The notes beneath the pieces are model-generated. The model saw only the letters and a list, made by a program, of their open reading frames with translations. It did no database searches and was not told the DNA's origin. The position numbers and the translations under genes are program-made. From Isoetes taiwanensis (lineage: Eukaryota; Streptophyta; Lycopodiopsida; Isoetales; Isoetaceae), in the NCBI GenBank assembly GCA_021234155.1, contig JAJEKV010000010.1, positions 12,544,359 through 12,608,358 of the forward strand: DNA of 64,000 nt. The letters are read 5' to 3'. Below are positions 12,905-64,000 of this stretch, one piece after another (positions within the stretch are counted from its first letter, which is position 1; each line of letters opens with the position of its first letter).

Positions 12905-15900
12905 TCAAGTATTGGAATTCTCACTTTGTCCTTCCAGGCGGTCACGCAACTTCCCAGCTATGCTCCGTGTTTTCTCTTCCAACCTTCCACTGACTTTCTT
13001 CCCTAAACTCAGCACTTTCTCACGTGTTGATTCTTTCTTAGAGTATAATCTAGGGCTATTCAATGGAGAGAGGCTTTCTTGCTCAGAAGAGTCCTTCTGG
13101 TCTGATGTTGATAAATCTTCGCTTTTTATTGATAATGCTTCTAAAGGTTGTCTCTGTAAATTGAAAGAACTTGTGTGTCTCAAAGGTTTCACACGCGGAA
13201 TGTTCTCTTCAGATTGCAAAGAGCTTTCAACAGAATCAGAAACTACATTAGAGGACGATTGACTTTCTCGCGTTGAAATACTCCAAGGGAAAGGAACCAA
13301 AGTTTGTGATAACCAGTCTCCATCCTCGGCCATCATCCAAGGAATATGGATATCTTCCAAGTTGGGGTATACCAAGGAATCACGTAAGAGTACCTGCCAA
13401 ATAAAACTGGAATTAGTAACATGATAAGAGCATATGCTACATGTTATATTACACTACACATTTATATGACGTGCTTAAGGAGATAGTTACTTCAAATGTC
13501 TATGAGCAGGCAGCTAGGAAAAGTATATCACAAAAATAATAATAATTTATTCTTATATAATCTCTGGACTAATGCTTTCCTATGTTCTATGTTGCTTGTT
13601 TCATGTATTTTCAAGGAAGATTAGGTAAGTCACTATAGATCAAAATGCGCCATATAAGCAGATTATTTGTGTCTAACATGTTGCCCTACCAAACAACTAT
13701 TATAATGCATTCAACAAATCATTCTCATTGTACGTGTTACCTCAACCATTATAAATATGTTTCAAGGATATGAATTATCATATATTTATATAAAGATTAG
13801 AATACAGATGACGATAACTTCTCTCTATCTAGTGAGGGGTGTTGAAGTTGAACTCGAGATCTTCCTCGTTTTTGTTGAGGTAGACAGCTGACCATAGGAA
13901 ATCTTGCTATTGAACTGAAACATGAGTCCAAGCGATTCGCATAAACTAGTGCTGAGAATTTTAACCCCTAGCTACACAAATTTGACTCTTATTACATGAA
14001 CTAAAATGGCGCACCCAATATTTCAATATCCTAATATTACACTGGATATACAAACTTGTGGTCCTCTGCTCTATTTAGTCTCAATGATAGGACATTGTAT
14101 TGTAGACTCACACCTAATGATTTTGAAAAGAAATTGCATTTACATAAAAGAGACATGGGTGGTTTTCTTGGAATTTATTGATAAAGTAGTTTGTTAAATT
14201 TTGATAAGTAAAATCACAACTATTGACGTTATAGCGACAAGCTAACATTATTTGCAAGTCTCGTCTTTATACCTTTATTCGATCAGTAATAAGTCCAACA
14301 ACTGGGCCGGTCCTGAGCTTCCGATCTGCTATTGAAGGTATGGAATGCAACTCAATATCGGGCATCGAAGAAAAGCCGAACCATATACGGTCAGTTGGAG
14401 GTGTCTTAATTCGTACTTGCAGTGTCCCCTCCAAAGACACTATCCTTATCGACAATGTAAATGGTACCTTAATACAGAATAATCTTTAATTGTTTGCAAA
14501 AATGCATGAATGTCCAATTATTGTTGCAATACATTTTGTTTCCCAGCTTCATTTGAAAGGTACAGGATATTGAATTGAGAGCATGTTATACTTTCCAATT
14601 CAACGTACTCGAAAAATAAATATGATACTGACATATTCAGATCTTAAATGACTACTACTAACCTGTGACATCCGATTAGCAACATGCGAAATCATGGCCT
14701 TCAATCCTAACCTTGAAGACCACCTTTTGTTTTTACTGGAGCCTGCAAATCCAATATAATAGCTGATCAGATCTATGAAGGTGATGCTAATTCCATATAT
14801 GATAGAAAAGCATGCCCATCTCTTCATTCTGGTCTAACAATGTTGAGACATCAACTGTTGATAATAAAAAACCCCTTTCATGCACAATAAGTGGGCATTT
14901 GGCATAATGCCTCTTTCTAAATGCATAAAAGATACAAATATATAACGTTGGAATAAGTTTTAAGTACCTTCGCCCTCCTTGGACACTCTCTGTTCACGTT
15001 CCTTCAGAGCATTAGGCACAGCTATTTGGTTAGATGCATATTGCAATTCCTCCATTTTATTGTTAGCATCAGCTTGCATACCCCCTTCGGTAAATAAAAC
15101 TTCAGAATGTGAGACATCCTTTTCTTGTGGGTCAGGATCCTGCACTTCCAACCTCGTCTCAAATGTAAGGACAACACCACCAGCATAAGAGACATCAGCT
15201 TCTAAAATCCAGACGCCATTTAAGTCCATAGATAACACTCTCATCCTTTGAACAAGAGGGGGTGCTTCTCCAAGATCAAGGCCAGTGCACGTAATTGGAC
15301 CAATATAGCTAGGTGTTGAAAGCTTTGATAGTTTTTTCTGATATAAGTCACAAAGAAATTAGTATTCTCATAGAATCATTGAGTTATTTTTCCAGCCTAG
15401 TTTAACATTCTAAACTTAAGTGCTTTATATATAATTATTTTTCAATGTTGATAATACTTCTCTGAAAAGAAACTTGCCTTAATACGATTCTCTAAATATG
15501 AGATAACTGCAGAACTGTGAATAATGTCAAAAAATATCCTCGAGAAAAATATGTTCCAGCTATGTAGTGCAATATCACAAACTTGCTTTGATGAGTCTTC
15601 ATTTGAAGGACTTTTCTCTAATGCTTCATTGTGTACTAAATCTGACTCATTCCTTGGTCCATTGTTGAGCCAAGTATGAATGCTGGACTTCAATCCAATC
15701 ATCATATCATCTTGGCTCTGCCTACGATGGGAAGATACTGCATCACTTTTTGAATATTCATCCTTTGACTTGTTTTCTTTTGATGATTTCATTAATTTCT
15801 TCCATAACCTTTTCCTAGCGGGCAAAGGATCTTGCTTCTGATATTGATACTTTCCTTCAATTGAGTTAGGAGGTCCATCCATTTCCAACAATGATGGGAA

Positions 15901-18900
15901 CCTCTTCTTAAGAGAAGAAATGTACTCTCCAAAACCTTGTTCATTGTAAACATCTCCTTTTGAAGCTGCCCGAAGAATACCACACCATACCTCCTTCTCC
16001 CATCCAGTATCCAAGTATAATAAGCATATATTTGATCCACCATAAAGCATACGACTGTTATGTTGCAATTTGATAGGGTATTTCTTGGCCCTTCAATGAA
16101 ATCATAAAAGACTATCATATTTAATGGCATTTAAAAGGATAAAAGAAAAATCAAGTTAATGTGAGGAGATTGACCAATCTATTTCAAAAATTAAGACCAA
16201 TAGAGATAAACAAGTTGGAATTTGTGGATTCAAAGGATGTATTATAGTGCAGGAGGAAGATGGGAAGAGAACATATCTAGTGAAGCCAACGGGCTTATAA
16301 GACAGTTTCATAATAAAAGACAGCATCTTGTTATGAGCTACTAGTAAAAGGTCCAGAGAGTAAGGGAGAGGGATTGGGGAGGGGGGAGGGGGAGGAAAGA
16401 TAATGATTATGTCTATGAACGCCTCATAGGTTCAAACGATGACTATTTTGTACAATATCATAAAAGAATAGTTGAGTCTTTGAATCCTCATCTACTTTGT
16501 CACTCTCCCTCATGGTCTTATCTTCATCCAATAGAGCATTTATATGCAATTTATCCTATATTGTAAAACTTCTATCATATATGATCCTATTTTAGCAGGA
16601 CATGTTCTTCATCTTCTACATCTCCATATACCTTATTCTCAATTGCATTCTCTCAGTGATCTTAGGATGATTTAGCCCCATCTTCTAGTTTCTACTCCAA
16701 GGTCATGAGAACTAAGGTGTATTCTACAAATAGTACGCCTCTTCTTTATAGAAACATTCTCCTTCAAGTACTTTGGTGTGCCCAAGGGGGGTTCATATGC
16801 TTTCATAGAGGATCATTTTTGTCTTGGGATTTTGACATATTTTTCGTCCTACTTTCTCATGTACCCATCATCTTAGGTCATCTTCCACTAGGATTGTTTC
16901 TTCCAAATCAATATCCCACTTACTGAACCACATTTTAAGTTTGTATTTCACACCCAGTTCAAGGCATAGAAATTCCTTTAGGACCTGTTCAATATCTTCC
17001 CATAGGCATTGTGGTACACTTGGATCCCAAATATCACATAATATAGGATGACACCTTGCATCAATGCCTCAAGGAGTTTCACTTAAGGTGCCAAACCCAC
17101 AAATAAATTCTCATGCACATGCTTTGCGTGTCATACAATATTTTCTATCCTCCTTCAATTCTTTGTGCAATGCAAACATTCCACTTATAATTCCTGCTTA
17201 TGGCTAACCCTAGATATTTATATAAGTCACATGTTTTTACAACTCCCTTTGTATCTACAAGGATGGCCCTCTTTAAGTGCCCTTATTGTCATGATATTAG
17301 TTTTTTCATCTGCATTTTTGTTGCATCACATGGCTAAACATGGGAGAGGGAGGGAGGGAGGGAGGGAGGGAGGAGGGGAGGGAGAAGGGGAGGGAGAGAG
17401 AGCATTCAAGGCAAGACAATATTTAAACCCTTTCTTATGGAGACCACTCATCAGCCCATACACGAGCATTGTGGCAAGTTTTCATTAAATGAAGTGCTTG
17501 TATATAATATATAACAAAATATCATCTCAAGCAAAGATCTCATTTAATCAGGTTTCCTTTATTAAGGGCTATGAAATTATTCTCTAGGTCATAAATTGAT
17601 GTAGTGGAATTTTGACTAAGAATTAGCATTTTGTATTATTCCTTTTAAATGCTAACCATTTCTTAGATGGCGTATCAGAGCCCGAGATTGCAACCACGTC
17701 ACAACCAAGGAGAAAAATTTGATCTTCATCACCATCCATGGATCTCAAGTTAAGTATCATTTTTTGTAATTTTGCATAAGTCCAAGATGGAGATACTGCT
17801 GGCCCAAATTTTATGACTTCCTTTTTGTTCTTTTGCTCTTTCAACCTTTTTTGGGCCAATATATTAGCTTCATTTTCTGCTTTTTCCAAGGTGGAATTTG
17901 ATATTGACGCTATCCACATCACACCCTGCCCAGAGGAATAAAACCTTAGAAGATAAAAATGCTTCAAGTAAACCTGTTACTTAGATGTAGAATATAATGA
18001 TGTTAACTGTTGGGAGGAAGGGATTAAAAATAGTCCATTGTCAGTTCTAACACCTTGTCAGCAAGCAAAATAGACCATTGCTAGGATGCACAACCTAGCA
18101 CTAGAAAGCTACCAGCCTGATGTCCAAAGGCATATGCAAACTAACCCTTTATATTTTATAAACTCCCTCCATTTACACTATCTTACACCAGGTCTCGTAG
18201 GACAGCATATTCACTAAAACTAAGCCCATGTTGAACGCATCAAGACAAGGGGTCTTTGCTCCATGATTTCAAGGAATTTCGCCAAGGAAATTGCTAAAGT
18301 ATATCTTTGACTTCTTCCTAGCCAACCTTATTTCTCCTTATTAAAAATGATGCCAAGAGCAATGTTCAACATCGTCAAAAAAAAAAAAAAAAAAGTTGGG
18401 TGTTCCTGTTCCAAACTATTCCATTCTTGGGATGCGATTTTGATTATGGGTTCGAGTAGCTATGTTGCACAGATGGCTCTTCTAAAATGACTAGGCTAAG
18501 CTACTCTAGTAAAATCTAAGATAGGCTAGTAAAAATGATGCCGAAGAACAAAAGCTAATGGGAAACTTAAAAGCCATTCAAAAATGTAACAGCAACTAGT
18601 TATGTAAACATATATGCAGTCATCTAGAGCAATGTTCAATTGACAAGGATAACAATTGCCAAGGGATATCATATGAGAAATGGGGCAACACAAGCTAGTA
18701 AATTTATCTACTTCAAACGCATTATCAATATATGACTTACAGAGGTATGATGTTTTTTACAAACCGAGAAGACTTAAATTTCCAATTAGTTCAAAGTTCT
18801 ACTGTAATAGAATCTTATAATTCTTCGAATAGAAAATCTGAGTTTCTCATTTAATTGAAAGATCAATCAGATTTGCTATAGAATCATACTTGATAGCTAT

Positions 18901-31178: not shown

Positions 31179-33340
31179 TCAGGCTGTGCTCATCTGCAAC
31201 TGAGTTCCAACTCCCTTGAAAAACAAAATCCAAAAGTTACTAATAAACCTTGGAACTCTATCAGAAACAATACTTGTAGGAATGCCATGTAAACGAAAGA
31301 TGTCATGAATAAAGATATTAGTAGTTTCCTTCGCTATTATTGTTTTGCTAACTGGAAAGAAATGAGCATGTTTAGTTAACCTGTCAATCACCATAAGAAT
31401 AGCATCCTTTCATTTTTGTGTTCTTTGCAATCCTACTATGAAATCCATGCTAATAGATTCCCATTTTCTTTCTGGAATATGTAACGGCTGCAAAAGTCCA
31501 GGTGCCCTAATCTGTTCGGCCTTAACACGTGAACACATCACACACTTTTGCATATACTTACGAACATAATCTTTTAATCCTGGCCAAACGAAACTTCTCT
31601 TTACCTTGTGATATGTCTTATGAAACCCTGGATGATCTGATATTATTGCATCATGACATTCATTTAGTATCTTCTTTTTAATGTGATCTATTGCAGGAAT
31701 ACAAACTCTTGACTTGTATCTCAATATTCCCGGTTCAAAACTATAATTATCCTTTATCTCCAGATTCTCTTTTTGTACTTTCTTCAATTTCGATCCAAAA
31801 TAATTGTCTGTAGCAATAATAGTTTTCACCTCATCCAACCAATCTGTTGTAACATGGAAGTCTAGATAAAGCATCTGCAACGACATTTGTGCTGCCCATT
31901 TTATAATTAATCTAAAAGTCATACTCTTGAAGAAATTCCATCCACCTATGTTGTCTCAAATTCAAATTAGGTTGTTTCGTAAAGTATACAAGACTAGCAT
32001 GGTCGGTATGCACCTCAAAATGATTTCCTAAAAGATAATGTCTCCATGCTCTAAGTGCATGTACAATTGCCAAGAGTTCCTGATCACTAGTGGGATAATT
32101 TCGTTCGACATCGTTCAGTTTATGAGAAATATATGCACACACATGCTTGTCTTGCATCAATACAGCTCCTGTCCCTTCCCCACTAGCATCTGTCATAACC
32201 TGATACTTCTTACTTGGGTCTGCCACTTTTAAAACAGGAGCGTTTATCAACTTCTCTTTTAAATTTCTGAAAGCTTTCTCACATTTCTCATCCCATTGAA
32301 AAGCTATATTTGATTTTGTAAGTGTTGTCAAAGGACTTGCTATTGTAGAAAAACTTTTGATAAATTTCCTATAGAACCCTGCAAGTCCTAAGAATAAGCG
32401 CACCTGTTTTGGGTTTTTAGGAACTGGCCATTCTCTCACTGCCTCAACCTTTTTGGGGTTAGGTATATTTCCCTCTGCTGAAACAATATGACCTAAATAC
32501 TCCATTTTGGTGCTATAAAATGAAAGCTTGACTTTTTTAGCATACAATTTTTCTCTTTTTAAAATATCCAAAACAATTCTCAGATGTTCTCTACGCTCCT
32601 CCAAATTCTTTGAATAAATAAGTATATCATCAAAGAACACAAGAACAAACTTATCAGATATTCACGAAAAAGATCGTTCATTAAACACTGAAAAGTTGAT
32701 GGTGCATTTGTGAAACCAAAAGGCATAACAACAAATTCAAAATGCCCATATCTTGTAGAAAAAGCTGGTTTGAGTATGTCACTCTCTTTGATTCTTATCT
32801 GGTGATATCCAGATCTAAGATCTATCTTTGAAAACAATGTAACTCCTTGAAGTTGATCAAACAAGTCATCTATTCTAGACAATGGGTATTTATTTTTAAT
32901 TGTGATATCATTTAGTTGCCTATAATCAACACACATACGCATAGAACCATCTTTTTTCTTAAAAATAATACTGGTGCACCAAAAGATGAAATACTAGGCT
33001 GTATATATCCTTGATTTAGAAGTTCTTTTAACTGTCTTTCTAATTCCTCGAGGAGGTAACTCTGTCAACTCTTCCGAAAACACTTCCTTGAACTCCTCGA
33101 GGATATCCTGCACATCATTCATGTATACTTGATTAATTTCTCCTGACCCTTTGAGTACAAGCAACCCCAACTTTCATGCTTCCTAATTGACCTCTTGATT
33201 TGCTTGTCATTAATGGGTTTAGATTCAATCCTTTCAGTGTATGTAGCTCTTGATGTTCCTTAGATTTTACTCTCACAACTTTCATATATGTATTTACACA
33301 GCATATGAAGGTCACTATATGACCAGTAATTACAATATCA
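31179..33340 (-). mobile_element. Truncated Ty3/gypsy retrotransposon (RT-RNase H-integrase)
   Basis: In minus-strand order: a broken linker with EVFSEELTELPP (about 33075), reverse transcriptase from [12 protein letters not shown] (32942) through [11 protein letters not shown], a frameshift near 32640, [11 protein letters not shown] (catalytic FxDD), then AEGNIPNPKK, the connection FLGLAGFYRKFI, and RNase H with VMTDASGEGTGAVL and HTDHASLVYF. A second frame change near 31915 is followed by the integrase HHCC zinc finger (HPGFHKTYHK..CVMC) and ISMDFIVGLQ with catalytic-core start. The element stops inside the integrase core (after VGTQLQ, 31179). Gag, an intact protease and both LTRs are missing. 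It is a dead fragment. Confidence 0.9.
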
Positions 33341-42136: not shown

Positions 42137-43410
42137 CTAACGTGAGGATGATATAAGGACTACCTTAGTCTTGGCCAGGTTGATGCGCATGTTAATGCCT
42201 CGACAGAATGCACCCAAGGCATGGAGATGGCGATGCATGCCCTCCAAAGTTTGAGCTAGAAAGTCCACGTTATCAGCATATATTAGTTGTTTGATGATCC
42301 GGTGCAAAAGTTGAGTTCCATTGTCTCCATTTTCAGCAAGCCAATTCTCCAACTGATCAATGTAGAATTCAAACAGTGTTGGAGAGAGGCAACATCCTCG
42401 ACGGACCCTGATACTGTTATTGAAAGGTTGGCATGCCGGCTGCAATTGGCTTGAGCATATTCCATATAGCCTATACACCGCATTCTGTAGCTCGACAGGG
42501 ACCCTTAGTTGTCTCAATTTTGTCTGCAGCTTTTCCCGGGGCAGAATATCAAAAGCCTTGCCAAAGTCAACGAAGCAACGATACAGGTCTTGGCGACAAT
42601 TCCTGCTATCTTCAACCAGAGTCCACGACGTGAAAATGTAGTCAATGTTGAGTGCGGGGCACGAATCACATTTCACGTGAGGGCATGTACTGCCTGGCAT
42701 ACGCCTAGTCGGTCAAGCTGGCCGCTTTCGAGAACCCTGACTAACGTTTTGCCACCAAAATGTTCATGATTACCTGGTAACTGGTTGGGCAGTGGGGGTC
42801 ACCTGTCTTGTAGATGGGAACAACTTTACTAGTAGTCCATTGAGGAAGGAAGCCTTCCTGTAATGCCGTGTTGAACAAGGCAGTTAGGACCTGTACTATG
42901 GATGGCCCTGCCCACTTGATCACTCTGCCTGCATACCATCCTAGTCTGTCGCTTTTCCATTGGCTAGGCGTTGTAAGCCCTGGTCAACATCTGCCCCTAT
43001 TGCTCAGAGGTAATGTTCCCTACAGGCCGTACTGGCTTTCTGAGCACCCTTCGTTAGAAGGTCCTGGGATGACGGTCCAGGAGGTAGAACATCCCCATTT
43101 GATGTCCTGTGATGTATCTTGATGTCCTGTGATGTATCCGGCTTTCTTAGCCTTGACAAAAGTGCAATATTATCTAGCCGCGTGCGAGCGTAGCGCGAGA
43201 TTTGTGACCTGGGGCAACCAACATTTGAGTTCCTTGCACTCAACATCAAACCACTGGTTACGCAGGCAAGTTGTAGTCCCCGAGGTCCTTCAAGGGAAGC
43301 TTCTCCCAAAGAATCTTTCGGGAAGCGTCCCAAGCACGTCAATCAACTGGGCAGTCTGTTGCTCTAGTGTGGGATACTGCCACCATAAAGCCACCAAAGA
43401 ACCACTATAA
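42137..43410 (-). mobile_element. LINE (non-LTR) reverse-transcriptase remnant
   Basis: The minus strand has, in order, WKSDRLGWYAGRVIKWAGPS (about 42960), FNTALQEGFLPQWTTSKVVP and IYKTGDP (the RT palm start, about 42870-42790), then after a frame change SRNCRQDLYRCFVDFGKAFD (about 42610-42550), GCCLSPTLFEFYIDQLENW and IYADNVDFLAQT. The last is the catalytic YxDD block, with the second Asp replaced by Asn. An upstream part (43342-42970) in other frames holds further decayed ORF2 sequence. Frameshifts, stops and the YADN change show that it is inactive. No poly(A) end or target duplication was identified. Confidence 0.85.
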
Positions 43411-44123
43411 AGCTCTTGAGCACAATGTGTTGATGCGACTAAACCCTAGAACTCTGTGTTTACGCCCTCTATGTTTACGCCCTACTATAACAATCTTAGG
43501 CTTCCGCCCTCAATTGCTATAATAGGGCATAACACCCTCATTTTAGGGTATTATCTTTCTCATAGTGATCGATGAGCATACCTAAATTTAAGACTATAGA
43601 GCTAAATAACAAAAGCAAAGAACTAGGCTACATACAAGGGGGCAGGGCAGATACAACATAAAGCAAAGACTTAACACAGGTTGATATTGGTCGATGGAAG
43701 ATTTAGATTTAACATTAAACTCAATCACATACACTTAATAGATTCGTTCTCCTGGATCTTTGTAATAAAGCTAGTTACTATAAAGATTAGAAGGGGGTTT
43801 ATTCTTTATCCGAATCAATGAAACCCAAATTTAATTTCCTTCCGCATTCAGAAACGCATTATAGAATTTAAGCATTATAGTAGAGGCAAAAATTTATCTT
43901 TCGAGAGGAACCATACTAATATATGAAACATGCAAAAACTACTATATTCTACTAACTATTATAAGTATATATATGATAGCAATGTTCCCAGATCAGTCCT
44001 GTGCTTCAAACAGCATATACAAATTTTGAATTGGCTGTTTAGATGGTGCTTCAAATGTTGATAGCAGTAGCCCAGTTTGCCAGGGAAGATCAGAGCACTT
44101 GACAGTTACACCAGATCGAGGGT
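43411..44123. other. Intergenic, downstream of peptide locus
   Basis: AT-rich. Near 43450-43560 there are short repeats of TTTACGCCCT and CCCT-type words. No gene was recognised. The part next to 44124 is the likely 3' UTR of the peptide locus on the minus strand. Confidence 0.4.
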
Positions 44124-44480
44124 TCATGGAATATGTGCAATTGATCCATGATTTGCATTAGATGAACTCTTAACATGGTTTGCTGGCGAAGCAGGCGGCA
44201 TTATCGGCATAGTTTGAGAAGCATATGATGGAACCTTTCCAACAGGAGCAGATGAAGGTGGAACTTTTGGTGGTGATGGAACATAGGGATGTGCTAAAGG
44301 AGGCAGTGGTTTCAAGTGTTCTATGGGACCAGGTTCAACAGGAGACTGAAGCCTTGGTTTTGGATCAACTGCTTCATAATCTTGTAAGTCACTTCCTTCA
44401 AATTCCTTAGCAATCTCAACTTGCTGACCTACCAAAGTTCTAGAAATCAAGAACCTTCTTGCTTCATGCAAGCCATGATC
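44124..44480 (-). CDS. Second (distal) peptide-encoding exon of the secreted-peptide locus
   Basis: After an acceptor (TTAACAG|GATCATGG) the minus strand is open for 118 codons to a stop at 44124. It begins DHGLHEARRF and contains DLQDYEAVDPKPRLQSPVEP and GPIEHLKPLPP, then a Pro/Ser-rich tail. The layout (ARR, then about 20 residues, then DY-x-AVDP-x-PR, then P-x-x-GPI) is the same as in the exon at 44898-45155. No ATG-plus-signal-peptide exon was found between the two, so it either shares the upstream exon at 45569-45658 by alternative splicing (the phase fits, 0 to 0) or is an orphaned duplicate. DY flanked by acidic residues is the usual context for tyrosine sulfation. Family identity and function are inferred. 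Confidence 0.55.
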   Translation of the reverse strand, partial: DHGLHEARRFLISRTLVGQQVEIAKEFEGSDLQDYEAVDPKPRLQSPVEPGPIEHLKPLPPLAHPYVPSPPKVPPSSAPVGKVPSYASQTMPIMPPASPANHVKSSSNANHGSIAHIP

Positions 44481-44897
44481 CTGTTAAGTTCAGTGGAGAA
44501 AAAAGTTTAGTCTAACAAAGAAAATTCTTCCACATGATTCAAAACAGTTATGAACATACGATAGTACTAATGCACAGGCCAAATATATAGAAATGCCATC
44601 TTGCATACATACAAATTCAAACAAAAGATTACATGACTTCAAATCTTAAAACTCTAACATACAATTGAAGATGAAGAATAGATATTCATAAGGAACAACC
44701 AATCAAATAAGAAAGAATACTGCACAGAAAAATCAATTTAAGTTCTGTATAGACCATCAAGGAACCACAAAATCTACAGTTTAACGTTTCTGAACTGTAA
44801 CAAGAGCAAATGGGAGCCATATGGTCCGGCTGCCATTCAAAATTGCATGTGCTAGTTCACAAAAATTTGGTCTGATATCATACCATTTTAGAAATGA

Positions 44898-45658
44898 TCA
44901 GGCATTGGATGGAGTTGAGGCACTGAGTGGGACTGATGGATCTGGTGGCTGAGGATCATCTGGAATAGGTGGACTAGGCTGCATATAGATTATAGGACCT
45001 GTCTGTGGAGGTGTTGGTGCCCTAGGAGATGGATCAACAGCAGGATAATCATGAAGACTACTATTATTATCTTCCAGGATCCTGGCCATATGGCCCTTAT
45101 GCAACATGGTTCTTCTTGCTTGGTGCATCTGGTATCTTTCATCCAGATCTGTATCCTGTCATACATTCAAACATCAAGTTGTTCTTAAACAGATTTTACA
45201 GGTTTGTATTGCTGAAAACAACTCAGTGATCAAGTGAACTACTATTCAAGCTATAGGTTTCTTGGTACACTAGAGATAAAAGAAATCTACAAAGGTTAGG
45301 AGCTACTTTAGAAAAACTGATCTTATGTAGCTGATTCAAACGATCGTTTAGATATGTTTACGACATTGTTATGTATAAGCTTGCCAGCAGAAATCAGCAA
45401 AAGACGGTAATAGAGGTGCCAATCCAATATACTTGCATTAATGGCAGAAAGAAGGGAAAAAAAAGGAAAGAAAAAGCTTCAAGAATCAAGCATTTTAAAT
45501 ACGTGCAGAAAGAAAGAAGGCAAAGAAAGAAAACGCTATAAGAATCAAAGAAATAGGTCATACTGTACCAGGGAAGAGCCAGAACGAAAGGTATTTCCAA
45601 GTGATCCAAGAAGAAGCAGGGCAACGAAGCAGCTAATCGACATGGAAGAAACCTTCAT
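44898..45658 (-). CDS. Putative small secreted peptide precursor (DY-motif), 2 exons
   Basis: Exon 1 (45658-45569) starts MKVSSMSISC and runs into FVALLLLGSLGN, a typical signal peptide, ending at CTG|GTACAG. Exon 2 (45155-44898) follows ATGACAG|GAT and continues in phase 0. The protein is 115 residues: signal peptide to about residue 22, a charged pro-region with ARRTMLHKGH, then SSLHDYPAVDPSPRAPTPP, QTGPI and a Pro-rich tail. The DY followed by Pro-rich, hydroxylatable sequence resembles plant tyrosine-sulfated peptide precursors of the PSY/CIF kind and a set of uncharacterised plant proteins sharing (D/E)Y-x2-(V/I)DP-x-P..PGPI. I cannot name the family. It would act outside the cell, processed from the C-terminal half. 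A second copy of exon 2 lies 418 bases downstream. Confidence 0.65.
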
Positions 45659-46885
45659 GCTTGCAAAATTCCTCACAAGATTTCGTTTCTCACGTCCACC
45701 ATCCCATGTCTATTTGGCTCCTCTATAAAAGCCCAGGCCCTCCAAGAAAGGGCGCCTCAGCCAGCCTTGCCTTCTAAATTCGTCCTTCTTACAATCCGGA
45801 AGCTTGAAACGTTTGGGCCGGAACCAAAATATGAGAATCCATTTCTGACGAATCAAAAGGCCGTCAAATGGGAATCCAACACCCGAAAAGAAAATGACCC
45901 AGACGATCTTTTTGCGGTTTGAACTGGGAATCGGATCGTCCCTGTACAAAAGAAAGAATTAAAGGCGGAAATTTAGCGCAGCAAGAAGCATATCATGTTA
46001 GCAAGAAAGGCAGAAACAGCCGATATGATTCATTGGGTATGGCAGAAAAAAGGGTATTCTTTCATTCCGTTCAGTCACCATTTCTGGCTTGCAATTAATG
46101 CAAATGACCCAACAAAGGCATTCTATTCTATGCAGCGCAGAGCTCCTACCTATACATGCAAGTTTCTCGTTACTTGATACCTTTCCAGCGCTAACCTCCT
46201 TCCATAGCCTGTGCTGCAGCGGCATTAATTAGGCCATCAATGCCATCACTTCCAAGAATGCTTTGATTTATGGCTTTGCAAGGTTTCATTATTGTTCTGC
46301 CTATTCAGTCCCTTTCCTGCATTGTTTTGCTTGCACCCTTTTTCTGTAATTTCTGCCATACCCACTTCGAATCTAGCAGTGATTTGCCAAAAAAGAGTAT
46401 GTAATTGGGTCCTTTTCGCCAATGGTGCAGGGAATCAATGATCATGTGAACCAAGTACTTGAATCTTGCAAAACAAAAAAGAGAAATAAATAGTAGGTTA
46501 GAGAAGACAATGGCCAAAATTATAGTCAACAAAGAAGATATAAAGGACGCCATGTCCTTGGGGATGTGTGCGCACTTACTTGTTTGAAAAATGTACAGTT
46601 AATGTCGAAATGTAAGACCCATATCTGAGCCGTCTCTCAATGTAAGATATGCAGGTCTTGTCATCAACATTTGGCCTTCTTTCTTAAAATGGACGTTTTC
46701 TTTATAGAGGAGATCATCGTTCAAAAAGAATCTAGAGCAGAATTCAATCCTTCCCTCTAAAATCATCACTAGGCTAAGTCCCATGTTACAATAACATCCT
46801 AATATACCGGTGATATTTTACTATAATCATAAATACAACTGTCACATTGAGATATGACACCATTTATGACTCAAAACCAAAAAAT
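45659..46885. other. Upstream flank of peptide gene; no other gene
   Basis: The stretch includes the probable promoter of the minus-strand peptide gene; no clear TATA box in minus orientation was found. The minus ORFs at 45710-45949, 45998-46225 and 46305-46553 are anonymous. The plus ORF 45441-45728 overlaps exon 1 on the opposite strand and is low complexity. Confidence 0.35.
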
Positions 46886-49229: not shown

Positions 49230-49876
49230 ATGGATTTGCCAACACTAGAGTCCTGAATGCTGTTGACTGGCGCCTTCTTCCTCGATTTGGAGGCAAGAAT
49301 TTTCAAATGTTCAAGTGGCGCCTCTAGACGATTCTGGAGGACAAAAACTTATGGAATATTGTGAATCCCAATGTATCCTCGCCCACGGCGAGTTCTGAAA
49401 CCGTTTTGACCACTGAGGTCATTGTGAATGCTCCCATCTCCGATTTTGATGAGAAAGATCGGAAGGCTCGTATTCTGATTTGTACTCTCCTTGAAGATGC
49501 CCCTGCACGAGTTGTGAAGGAGGCAACCACTGCTCGAGAGATGTGGAAAAGGCTGATGAATCATTATGAATGTCCCAATGCCGCACATCGGTTGATGCTG
49601 CGGAAGAAGCTGTATGATCTCCATCTGCCTGACGGTGGGGATGTTGGAGAACACTCTAGCAAGATCAAAGAACTATTGGATGATCTCTGTGCTACCGGTG
49701 TAGATGTTACAGAAGATGAGAAAGTATCTCTGCTCCTCAATAATCTGCCCAAATCTTTTGAGAGCTTGATTATCAATCTTGAAGGGCGACTTTCCGATTA
49801 TACCTTCGATTCTGCCATGGATCGAATTCGTGTTGAGGCTCTCCATCAACAACACAATGGGGTTTTAACATCATAG
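49230..49876 (+). pseudogene. copia Gag region
   Basis: Capsid-like protein that packages element RNA. Reading starts at ATG 49230 (MDLPTLES), shifts frame to NAVDWRLLPRFGGKNFQMFK, meets a TAG in place of a Gln codon after FKWRL, then continues TILEDKNLWNIV and the UBN2-type Gag helix region (AREMWKRLMNHYEC, KLYDLHLPDGGDV, LLNNLPKSFE) to a stop at 49876. One frame change and one nonsense codon disable it. Confidence 0.85.
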
Positions 49877-49882
49877 GTTGTC

Positions 49883-50560
49883 ATGCTTGCAGATAACAAG
49901 AATCCTGCCAAGAAAATCTCTAAGCCTCGTTCTGACAAGAGGCGACCAACATGCTATCGATGTCAAAAGGGGGGACATCTTGCTAGGGATTGTCGTGCCC
50001 CAGCTCCAATTCCTTCAAACTCCACCGAACCTAGCTCTGATCGAACTGTATCAGAAGAACAGAGCAATATAGTTCAAGATTTTCTTTATTATGTCAATGC
50101 TGATCATGATCTTCCTGATCCTTCCTGGTATCTCGACTCTGGTGCAACAAGTCACATCTCTCCATATCGACAATTCTTTGTGACTTATAATATCTTGTCC
50201 TCTCCTCGTCCAGTACACATGGGAGATCATAGCAAGTGTTATGCAATTGCTCAAGGCACTGTTTCTGTTCCACTTTCAAATGGCAATGTCAAAATGGTTC
50301 GACATGTATTACATGTCCCAGATTTGCAAAAGAATCTTATCTCTGTGAGCAAGCTGACTGATGCAGGCCTCCGTGTTGCTTTTAATGCCAACGTCTGTGA
50401 AGTTCTTAATTCTTATGACAAAGTTCTACTTTTCTTTATCGCATTGCAGATGGTACTCTACCTGCATAATATGCACATCTTGCTGTTTCGCCACCCACTC
50501 CTCAGAATCTTTGGCATTACTGTCTTGGCCATATTTCTCCACGTCGCCTTCATCATATGA
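49883..50560 (+). pseudogene. copia zinc knuckle and aspartic protease region
   Basis: A CCHC knuckle CYRCQKGGHLARDC near the start, then the protease active site WYLDSGATSHIS (DSG) and the typical HVPDLQKNLISVSKLTDAG block preceding the integrase. After about 50450 the frame is lost; the GAG-pre-integrase segment continues in another frame. It is separated from Gag by a stop and a one-frame change. Confidence 0.88.
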
Positions 50561-52017
50561 TCACTCACCATCATCTTCGCCAGCCTGCCACTGTCTTTAC
50601 TCCATGTAATGCTTGCATGCAAGGCAAGACTACTAGAGCTCATTTCTCATCATCCTCTTCCACTTCCCATCATCGTCTGGAGCTTCTTCATCTTGATGTC
50701 TGTGGCCCAATCAGTCCTCCTTCTGCCAGCAAAGCACGTTACTTCTTCCTCATATTGGATGACTTTAGCAGAAAGACCTTTGTTTATTTTTTTCAGGCAA
50801 AAAGTCAAGCATATGAATTCTTTCTTATTTTTCATCGGGAAATTGAGCGTGCAACACAAGATCACAGTATTACTATTCGAACTGATGGTGGCGGAGAATT
50901 TTGTTCCAATATGTTCAATTCCTTTTGTGCCTCCCATGGTATCCAGCACCAGCCATCTGCTCCTTCCACTCCAGAACAAAATGGTCGTGCTGAGCGTGCC
51001 AATCGCACCATCATTGAGATGGCTCGCACCTTGCTTCTTGCCATGCACGTTCCAGCCACTTATTGGGCCGAAGCAGTGGATACTGCTGTTTATCTCAGCA
51101 ATCGCACACCTCACAGTGCTCTTGCAGGTCGTCTACCTGAAGAAGTCTGGACCGGCAAATCTGTTGCTTTCTCTCATCTTCGAGTCTTTGGATGTCGTGC
51201 CTTTGCTCATATTCCCCATAGTCACAGATCCAAATTTGCTGCCACTGTCAAAGAATGTATGTTCTTGGGATACTGCACTAACCGCAAGGCTTATCGTTTA
51301 TTGGATCTTGCTACCAAAACTCTGGTTATCAGTACCCATGTTCGTTTTAATGAGTTTGAGTCCTGCCATATTTCCCCTGATAATCCTTGTTCTTTCACTC
51401 TGGTTGAAGACCCGCTTCCTTCTCTATCCGATTCTGCTCCTGTTCTGCCCCCATCTATACCTTCTTCACCACCTTCTGCACTCCCACCAGATACTTCATC
51501 TGAGCCTTCTAGTCCGCCTCCTCCACCCCTTCCTTCCCTGCCTCCTTCTGATCGTCCTCAACGACTTCGCCGTCCTCCTATTTGGCACAAAGACTATAGT
51601 CTTACCCTCTCTGAGCTTCCTCATGAACCGTCTTCATACTCTGCTTCCACCAACAGTCCTCATCAAGCACAATGGATTGTTGCTATGACAGAAGAAATTC
51701 AATCTATTCATCAAGCTCATACTTGGAGCCTCATTCCTCGCCCTGCAGATTGTCATGTTGTTGGGTCTAGATGGGTTTACAAATTGAAATTCAAGCCTGA
51801 TGGGTCCCTTCATCGTTTCAAGGCACGATTGGTAGCCCGTGGATTCTCTCAAATTGCCGGTGTTGATTATGATGAGACCTACGCTCCAGTTGCCAAAATG
51901 GCCTCCATTCGCACTGTACTAGCATTTGCCACTCTCCACCATTATTTCATTCATCAAATGGATGTAAATAATGCCTTTCTCAATGGTGTTCTCAAAGAGG
52001 AAGTCTTCATGGAATAG
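50557..52017 (+). pseudogene. copia integrase and N-terminal reverse transcriptase
   Basis: An open stretch of 486 codons with the end of the integrase zinc finger (CNACMQGK), the integrase core (LHLDVCGPI.., RTDGGGEFCSNMF, STPEQNGRAERANRTIIEMA; the D-D-E residues are visible), then a Ser/Pro-rich spacer, and RT_2 motifs WVYKLKFKPDGS, RFKARLVARGFSQ, YDETYAPVAKM and HQMDVNNAFLNG. It ends at a TAG in place of the usual ME-Q-P-x-GF junction. This is the best-preserved part of the element. Confidence 0.9.
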
Positions 52018-56850: not shown

Positions 56851-57234
56851 TTAAAGTTGTTCCTCTAAAGTAGTTGGCTTGACTATCTCTGACAACAAAG
56901 CAATCAGATCTTCTGATAGGTCACCAATGTCAAGTTTTGAATAATCGCATAGAGCAAAATTCTCATCTGACTTTTCTATATCGTTTGTGATACTAGAAAC
57001 ACAAGGCTGCGGAACAAGATGCATTTTCTTTTTACTTTCCATATTTAACCCTGTTAATTGTTGCACTACAGCCTTGAAGTTCTCCTTACTAGTTTGTACC
57101 TTCTGTGGATATATACGTCTAATCAACCCTGGAATTTCATGCTGCGAATTCTGCCATGGCACTCTAATTGTTCTCTTTTTTCTTATGGATGAGTGCAATT
57201 TAGGCTTTGGAGACCAATCTTGCTTGCTTGTCAT
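56851..57234 (-). CDS. VQ-motif-containing protein (small, intronless)
   Basis: 127 residues from ATG at 57234 to a stop at 56851. The defining VQ motif FKAVVQQLTG occupies residues 53-62 (F-x3-V-Q-x-L-T-G all present), preceded by a basic N-terminal half with KKRTIRVPWQ and followed by an acidic C-terminal half. VQ proteins are plant-specific nuclear cofactors that bind WRKY transcription factors through this motif and modulate defence and development. Most are small and intronless, as here. The size is normal for the family, the frame is uninterrupted, and charged termini are typical. It has no close gene neighbours. No expression signal was examined beyond the ORF, so activity is inferred from motif conservation. 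Confidence 0.85.
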   Translation of the reverse strand: MTSKQDWSPKPKLHSSIRKKRTIRVPWQNSQHEIPGLIRRIYPQKVQTSKENFKAVVQQLTGLNMESKKKMHLVPQPCVSSITNDIEKSDENFALCDYSKLDIGDLSEDLIALLSEIVKPTTLEEQL

Positions 57235-58198
57235 GTAAGCGCAATATTAGAAGAAGAAAAAGCAATTTTTATGTCATACCACATTAGCAACAAGACGAAC
57301 ATATATATATGTATCTGATTAGATTATACCGTTTCAAAGTATCGAAAAGTGAAGACAATTTCAAATCAAATATAAAAATAGTTTGGAAACATTAGTGAAG
57401 GTGGTAGGGCAATTTCAAAGCAAGATCAAAATTACTGTATCAAATTTGTTTTTTGTATGATAAAGTTGCATCGTCAAATTAAATTTATTATATAGGGCCA
57501 TGAATATCAAAGACCGTGAAAGGGCTATAAAAGGGTATCGTGTAGCCAAAGAAATCAAATAAGGACCATTCCAATAAAAAAAACTAAATTGTGATTTTAT
57601 ATTTGTAGACAATGATAAACATTGAGTAAGCACACCAAACTTCTATTAAATTACCAAATAAAAAACAACAACATACAAATGCACATTACTAAAACTCCAG
57701 TGGATAAATTGATCCAACCAAGTAAAACCACCTAACGATGCATATGACTATTGAAGATAACCAATTCTTTCTCGCGAAGAACAGTAATAAGCCTTGACAA
57801 ATTTAGTTCGTGCATTAAAAGGAACCTGCTTATATAGGAACCATCACACTCTTAAATAAACGTAGATTCCTCCTCTTCTAAATGAACAAGAGCAACCACC
57901 CGATAGCAAGCTGAGGGATACACAGTAAGAAAGATTTCTTGGCTTGTGAGAGAGACTCCAAAAAAGGGCTATCAACCAAGACTACCCCACCCTAAGATGC
58001 TTATACAACAAGAAACAATACTTAGTCGTCACCAAGCCATTTACAAGATGAAGGGATCACCATGAAGAAGTAGTTTGTACATTGATAAGCAATGAGTTTG
58101 TTATTGGCCAATTTTTCTCGTAGTAGATTCTTTCTCTCTCCCCATATCTCTCTACATCACTTCAATGCTTCATATATATTACTTAATATGCTTATTAT

Positions 58199-63256: not shown

Positions 63257-64000
63257 CAAGTTGAAGAAGCATGGCTACTCGTTTTGAAGCTAATTTGCTA
63301 AATTCTATAGAGGTTTTCAAAGGAGATGGAGGCTTTCAAATTTGGAAGCAGAGCATTAGAGAAGTGTTGGAGTTTGAAAAATTATGGTACTTGGTTGATC
63401 CAACTGCTGCCAATAATTCACCTGTGATTGTAAGAGCAGGGACTTCTAGTCAAGGGGGAACAAGCTCCAGCTCAAGTGGTGAAGGGTCTACCTTAAGGGC
63501 AACTGCTGAAAGTGGACCAGTGAATTCATCCAGTACTGCAACAGTTGGAGAAGATGAAAAAATAAAAAGTATGGAGGCCCAGGCAATCATCAGTTGCAAA
63601 GTGGGATCTGCAATTAAGTTGAAGTTGAGGGGTATGACTCCAAGAGAAATGTGGATGTATCTAATTAAAGAGTATGAAGCCAAGACTTCATCTCAAATTG
63701 ATGTTTTGGAGAAGCAGTTGAGAAGGTTAAAGCTGCATGAAAAGGATAACATAACAGAGTTTTTTGAAAAGTTTGACTCTATTATAGCTGACCTTGAAGG
63801 TGCTGGAGTTATCCTCAATGAAGAGTATTAGTTGTTGGCTATATCTCGTGCAGTATCTCATAATTTCCATCTTGCAACCCTGATAAGGAATATTGCAAAG
63901 TCCAAGGAGCATGCCATTAAAATAGTACGAACTGAGTTTGAGCAGAGTAAAGTGCATGATGATGATGAGGATAATTCTGAAGCATTGTACACTGGAAGAT
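63257..64000 (+). mobile_element. Ty1/copia element, 5' internal part with Gag (runs off window)
   Basis: Gag starts at ATG 63271 (MATRFEANLLNSIEVFKGDG, then IWKQSIREVLEFEKLWYLVD) and contains EMWMYLIKEYEAKTSSQIDV and KDNITEFFEKFDSIIADLEG, a UBN2-type Gag. A TAG at 63829-63831 interrupts it after NEEY; the same frame then continues LLAISRAVSHNFHLATLIRN to the window end. The nonsense codon suggests a dead copy. It differs from the copia element at 48.9 kb in LTR, primer site and Gag, so it is another family. Confidence 0.85.

Follow-up and report, generated by a model that had tools for sequence, protein, structure and literature searches.

Does a single gene of Isoetes taiwanensis make two different secreted peptides by choosing its last exon? 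The question is raised by a locus in which one exon, encoding a putative signal peptide, precedes two tandem terminal exons, A and B, with related peptide motifs. The locus lies in a stretch of 64,000 nucleotides (contig JAJEKV010000010.1), hereafter the window, whose first base is position 1.

The locus and its exons

The first-pass annotation had placed exon 1, exon A and exon B in this order, and this three-exon layout was recovered on the minus strand when coordinates, phases and translations were rechecked. Exon 1 (45569–45658, minus strand) consists of an ATG and the signal-peptide-like sequence MKVSSMSISCFVALLLLGSLGNTFRSGSSL; it ends in phase 0, as had been claimed, with GTACAG next. 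Its hydrophobic stretch has an 11-residue mean hydropathy of 2.71. Among the 15 rows of the whole window that run from an ATG to a phase-0 donor (cut-offs of 2.3 for hydropathy and 0 for the donor score, nested starts being counted), exon 1 is only 4th by hydropathy, and it is therefore a good candidate but not a unique one. Its donor, CTG/GTACAG (the slash marks the cut), is middling, at the 89.9th percentile of GT sites; the splice-site frequencies are rounded plant values, which makes this and all the site ranks and percentiles below only rough. An alternative donor five bases downstream, ACA/GTATGA, was rejected: it scores −0.32 vs 0.98 and breaks both frames at the acceptors of exons A and B. 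A TATA-like element, TATAGA (45722–45727, minus strand), which is a consensus match only, is found 69 bases upstream of the ATG.

An intron of 413 bases (45156–45568, minus strand) separates exon 1 from the proximal terminal exon A (44898–45155, minus strand), which has 85 codons and a stop. The acceptor of exon A, ATGACAG/GAT, ranks as strong, at the 98.8th percentile of AG sites. Exon B, the distal terminal exon (44124–44480, minus strand), has 118 codons and a stop, and its acceptor, TTAACAG/GAT, is middling (89.1th percentile of AG sites). The ACAG acceptor followed by a GAT start is common to both exons, each of which has its own stop, and the phase 0 end of exon 1 fits both acceptors. 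ARR, DY-x-AVDP-x-PR and GPI are present in A and in B; these motifs, the phase-0 start with GAT and the separate stops had all been reported before, and all were found again.

The frames of the two exons are unlikely to be open by accident: if stops occurred as often as in the non-coding DNA on either side, the chance would be about 0.006 for A and about 0.0008 for B. Dinucleotide shuffles of the exons themselves, which stay open in 22/2000 cases for A and 9/2000 for B, give a weaker result than the figure based on flanking stops.

The interval between A and B (44481–44897, minus strand) has 417 bases, is 42% T and contains five TGTA. If the locus is spliced as proposed below, it would be the 3′ UTR of the A transcript and an intron of the B transcript. 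The interval has no exact AATAAA, that is, none is found after exon A. An AATAAA downstream of exon B (43798–43803, minus strand) is signal-like and does not prove a poly(A) site.

The surroundings are transposon-rich and plant-like, with a GC content of 39.4% over the window, in which tRNA and Rfam scans were empty. Pfam was run on 10 of the 23 stop-to-stop ORFs of at least 130 residues in the window, and those 10 include Copia, RT-RNaseH/integrase and LINE-like remains, an ORF with a VQ motif and an ORF with an SMP-associated PH domain. The remains of a Copia-type LTR retrotransposon (gag, integrase and reverse transcriptase; 49328–52017, plus strand) are located about 3.7 kb upstream of exon 1, and a second Copia-type gag is found at 63265–63831. 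A LINE-like reverse transcriptase fragment (42137–42712, minus strand) is found downstream of exon B, at a distance of about 1.4 kb, and ORFs with RT-RNaseH and integrase zinc-binding domains (31410–32661, minus strand) are Gypsy-like in our reading. The VQ motif (PF05678, E 1.6e-8) belongs to an ORF at 56851–57246 (minus strand). The ORFs at 14960–16092 (minus strand) match the SMP-associated PH domain (PF23065, E 1e-13) and also, under the curated cut-off, MMM1 (PF10296, E 0.0027); we take them to be, perhaps, a TEX2-like lipid-transfer gene.

Identity of the two peptides

The peptide core of exon B, DYEAVDPKPRLQSPVEPGPIEH (44316–44381, minus strand), is identical at 12 of 22 positions to the mature TWS1 peptide of Arabidopsis, DYNFPVDPTPTTKASIKPGPIEH, as given in a review table (PMC11534595; this and the other papers are cited from excerpts), with one TWS1 residue gapped. 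The identities include DY, VDP, the next P and the whole PGPIEH end. With TWS1 as the query, B comes first and A second among the 2120 stop-free segments of at least 20 residues in the window, with scores of 64 and 38; the next segment scores 36, so that A alone barely stands out. The score of B compares with a shuffled mean of 25 and is reached by 0/5000 shuffles; that of A is reached by 42/5000. Judged by its sequence, B is clearly TWS1-type. The earlier remark that the family is little described does not survive this comparison, since TWS1 is a well-studied ligand of the CIF family.

The core of exon A, DYPAVDPSPRAPTPPQTGPIIY (44985–45050, minus strand), is identical to TWS1 at 9/22 positions (again with one TWS1 residue gapped) and to core B at 12/22. 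Against CIF1, A scores 40 (reached by 7/1000 shuffles) and B 37 (11/1000); against CIF2, 33 (29/1000) and 36 (22/1000); against CIF3, 32 (111/1000) and 36 (54/1000); against CIF4, 26 (193/1000) and 30 (138/1000). Exon A is thus tied to the CIF/TWS1 family mainly via B, and its raw score is marginally nearer to CIF1 than to TWS1. Membership of the RGF/CLEL family was rejected: the RGF9 and RGF10 scores of A are reached by 755 and 231 of 1000 shuffles, and those of B by 391 and 684. An HN end is absent from both cores.

The DY with which the mature peptides start is present in both cores, and the earlier guess that the peptides are tyrosine-sulfated fits this, the sulfation itself being putative. 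The other end differs between the copies. In the table of PMC11534595, the five Arabidopsis CIF/TWS1 members end in N, N, H, H and H. Copy B, ending in GPIEH, has this C-terminal His/Asn feature. Copy A reads GPIIY: the EH is lost and there is no C-terminal His or Asn, which is why we term it a diverged paralogue of the TWS1-type exon and not a TWS1.

TWS1 belongs to the CIF family and is a sulfated ligand of GSO1/GSO2, made from a CIF-like precursor of 81 residues. According to the excerpts of PMC13082318, PMC11534595 and PMC11756074, the precursor is cut at the N-terminal side between Glu31 and Asp32 (GLE/DYNFPV) by SBT1.8, whose action depends on the sulfotyrosine, and at the C-terminal side between His54 and Gly55 (PGPIEH/GTPLNP) by ALE1 or SBT1.8; the cleavage by ALE1 requires both the His and the Gly. 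The same sources describe the mature peptide as acting through GSO1/GSO2 and SERK co-receptors in the monitoring of the embryo cuticle, and other CIFs as acting at the Casparian strip and the pollen wall. Like Arabidopsis TWS1 (At5g01075), the Isoetes locus encodes a small precursor that is predicted to be secreted, with VDP-x-P and PGPIEH in core B and a C-terminal extension past the core; unlike TWS1, which has one precursor, it has two alternative peptide exons. The cleavage contexts also differ, with Q/DY and H/L in B vs E/DY and H/G in TWS1. The His-Gly site for ALE1 is absent from both copies, His-Leu being found at that place in B and Tyr-Met in A. Since B has His then Leu and A reads GPIIY-M, cleavage at the C-terminal side is expected to be unlike that in TWS1.

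Databases add little to this assignment. No Pfam model matches exon A or B, searches of solved structures with A and B gave best E-values of 0.58 and above, and the TWS1 query matched no chain there; the CIF2 query did match 6s6q, the entry of the CIF2 peptide. A scan of prokaryote genomes returned 111 pattern matches, none of which was confirmed as a relative.

Published accounts, again as excerpted, conflict on the origin of CIF and TWS1. In PMC13074997 and PMC11855783, CIF first appears in gymnosperms, and the latter reports genes of the TWS1 type from seed plants, spruce and Ginkgo having a single homologue each. On the other side, PMC10638237, which cites Furumizu 2021, assigns CIF to hornworts and TWS1 to vascular plants, and PMC13091385 makes the claim that three deeply branching lineages outside plants have CIF-like sequences.

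Homology and constraint of exons A and B

Exons A and B are homologous. Their local alignment scores 133, compared with a shuffled mean of 40 (sd 7), and 0/5000 shuffles reach this score. When phmmer is run against the stop-free segments of the window of at least 15 residues, A and B find each other with E-values of 2.1e-10 and 3.9e-10, and the next match has an E of 0.73. Six-frame motif scans, similarity scoring and phmmer all failed to reveal a third copy in the window.

The two exons share 28 residues over 71 aligned codons, and the bases match at 33, 48 and 28 of the 71 codons at positions 1, 2 and 3, respectively, which is the order expected if the protein sequence is conserved. The pN/pS ratio is 0.64 (95% 0.48–0.85) and is at least 1 in 3/2000 bootstraps; the corrected dN/dS has a median of 0.40 (95% 0.19–0.76), with 367/2000 replicates saturating. 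The exons have therefore been under constraint at the protein level, but this is a comparison of two copies alone, which does not establish that both are in use today.

The duplication is old, as indicated by a dS near 1.7. Consistently, the 413-base intron and the A–B interval are no more alike than shuffles, which reach their alignment score in 61/300 cases. A recent duplication of a larger segment was rejected on this result, the best blastn match between intron and interval being 69% over 61 bases (E 0.009).

A proposed choice of the last exon and its alternatives

The reading that fits these features best is that of one gene with a shared 5′ exon and two alternative last exons. The first-pass annotation had proposed as much, and the proposal is still the best available: the anatomy fits, and it is this anatomy that argues for the layout. 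We consider it somewhat more probable than not. The locus would then be a precursor gene of the CIF/TWS1 family, with one signal-peptide 5′ exon and two tandem 3′-terminal exons derived from an old exon duplication. If exon 1 is spliced to exon A and the transcript is polyadenylated before B, the product would be a precursor of 115 residues with the diverged peptide DYPAVDPSPRAPTPPQTGPI(IY). Skipping of A and splicing of exon 1 to B would give a precursor of 148 residues and the canonical TWS1-type peptide DYEAVDPKPRLQSPVEPGPIEH. Both peptides would be secreted, sulfated by TPST on the tyrosine of DY and trimmed by subtilases, and at least B may be sensed by GSO1/GSO2-type receptors, which have apoplastic barriers (embryo cuticle, Casparian strip, pollen wall) under their control. 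What is most unusual about the locus is the position of the canonical peptide in the distal exon, which requires the proximal one to be skipped. Given the strong proximal acceptor, and the middling donor of exon 1 and acceptor of exon B, the junction that skips A is less favored by the sequence. Also against this reading are the cryptic first exon for B, the modest match of A to TWS1 and its lost EH, the His-Leu of B in place of His-Gly and the lack of AATAAA after A.

The alternative that survives best, although we regard it as unlikely, is that of two adjacent genes: A would belong with exon 1, and B would have its own promoter and first exon within the 417-base interval. Tandem CIF genes have indeed been described in Liriodendron (PMC13074997, as excerpted), and the interval does contain a hydrophobic stretch that starts with ATG, MYARWHFYIFGLCISTI (44560–44610, minus strand), followed by a phase-0 GTATGT donor 79 bases before exon B. 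The earlier statement that no second signal-peptide exon is present between A and B is thus nearly correct, but not in the strict sense. This candidate first exon is weak: it is short, it is not among the phmmer matches of exon 1, and at least one such candidate arises in 76/1000 dinucleotide shuffles of the interval. Moreover, the interval resembles the region of exon 1 no better than shuffles do (48/300), and about 290 bases, shared with the 3′ end of A, would have to accommodate a promoter, a 5′ UTR and the first exon. There would seem to be not much space in the interval for a second promoter and first exon.

It is distinctly unlikely that one of the two exons is an orphan, namely a decaying duplicate that is spliced into no coding mRNA. 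The loss of the EH end from A would agree with this, as would the position of B, whose middling acceptor is distal to a strong one. However, both frames are open, pN/pS is below 1, and the exact TWS1 end is kept in B. The annotation had raised the same alternative; the codon-level constraint opposes an orphan that died long ago, and a recent loss of use is compatible with the data. The last possibility, that of a single exon 1–A–B transcript in which B is a spliced 3′ UTR exon, regulatory or translated by reinitiation, is very improbable: it can invoke the donor-like ATG/GTATGA (GTATGA at 44878–44883, minus strand; 97.5th percentile of GT sites), which is found 14 bases past the stop of A and is the best of three donors scoring >1.5 on the minus strand between 45700 and 44300, but it gives no reason for an open frame of 118 codons with a TWS1 core, and leaves B without a signal peptide.

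The layout of one gene with two last exons has a precedent in another peptide family. Conifer CLEL/RGF genes have alternative 3′-terminal exons (Strabala 2014, PMC4016512), and pairs of gymnosperm RGF peptides possibly originate from such splicing (Furumizu 2021, PMC8329595), according to the excerpts of these papers. Like these genes, the Isoetes locus has, by its anatomy, one signal-peptide-like 5′ part and candidate alternative terminal exons with different DY peptides; it differs by the family, the peptides being CLEL in conifers vs VDP...GPIEH here. In conifer CLEL14/22, an alternative donor is used inside the terminal exon (PMC4016512), whereas exon A has no internal donor scoring >1.5. 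Within the CIF family, a further likeness is that of LcCIF1-1 and LcCIF1-2 of Liriodendron chinense, which also result from tandem duplication. By their description in the excerpt of PMC13074997, on which this comparison is based, these are two genes with their own 2-kb promoters, whereas a single convincing first exon is present here. Among the matches listed from titles and open-access literature, none names a CIF/TWS1 gene with alternative terminal exons. As far as the literature search reaches, the two-ending layout is thus published for CLEL and unreported for CIF/TWS1.

A more specific proposal, which we consider highly doubtful, is that the terminal exons form a switch under a shared promoter and signal peptide: the distal B would be the canonical agonist of GSO1/GSO2, and the default proximal A, which keeps the sulfotyrosine end without the C-terminal His/Asn, would act as a competitor or reach another receptor.

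It is through TWS1/CIF peptides that plant cells learn whether an apoplastic barrier is closed. If the terminal exons do form such a switch, the choice of a splice site would set the output of barrier signalling. If one gene makes both peptides by choosing its last exon, a change in the identity of the ligand would need no second promoter. Genes with two endings could be split or overlooked by annotation pipelines. Should the reading be true, the same architecture would have arisen in two families of sulfated peptides, CLEL in conifers and CIF/TWS1 in Isoetes, which would suggest a recurrent route to the diversification of peptide hormones.
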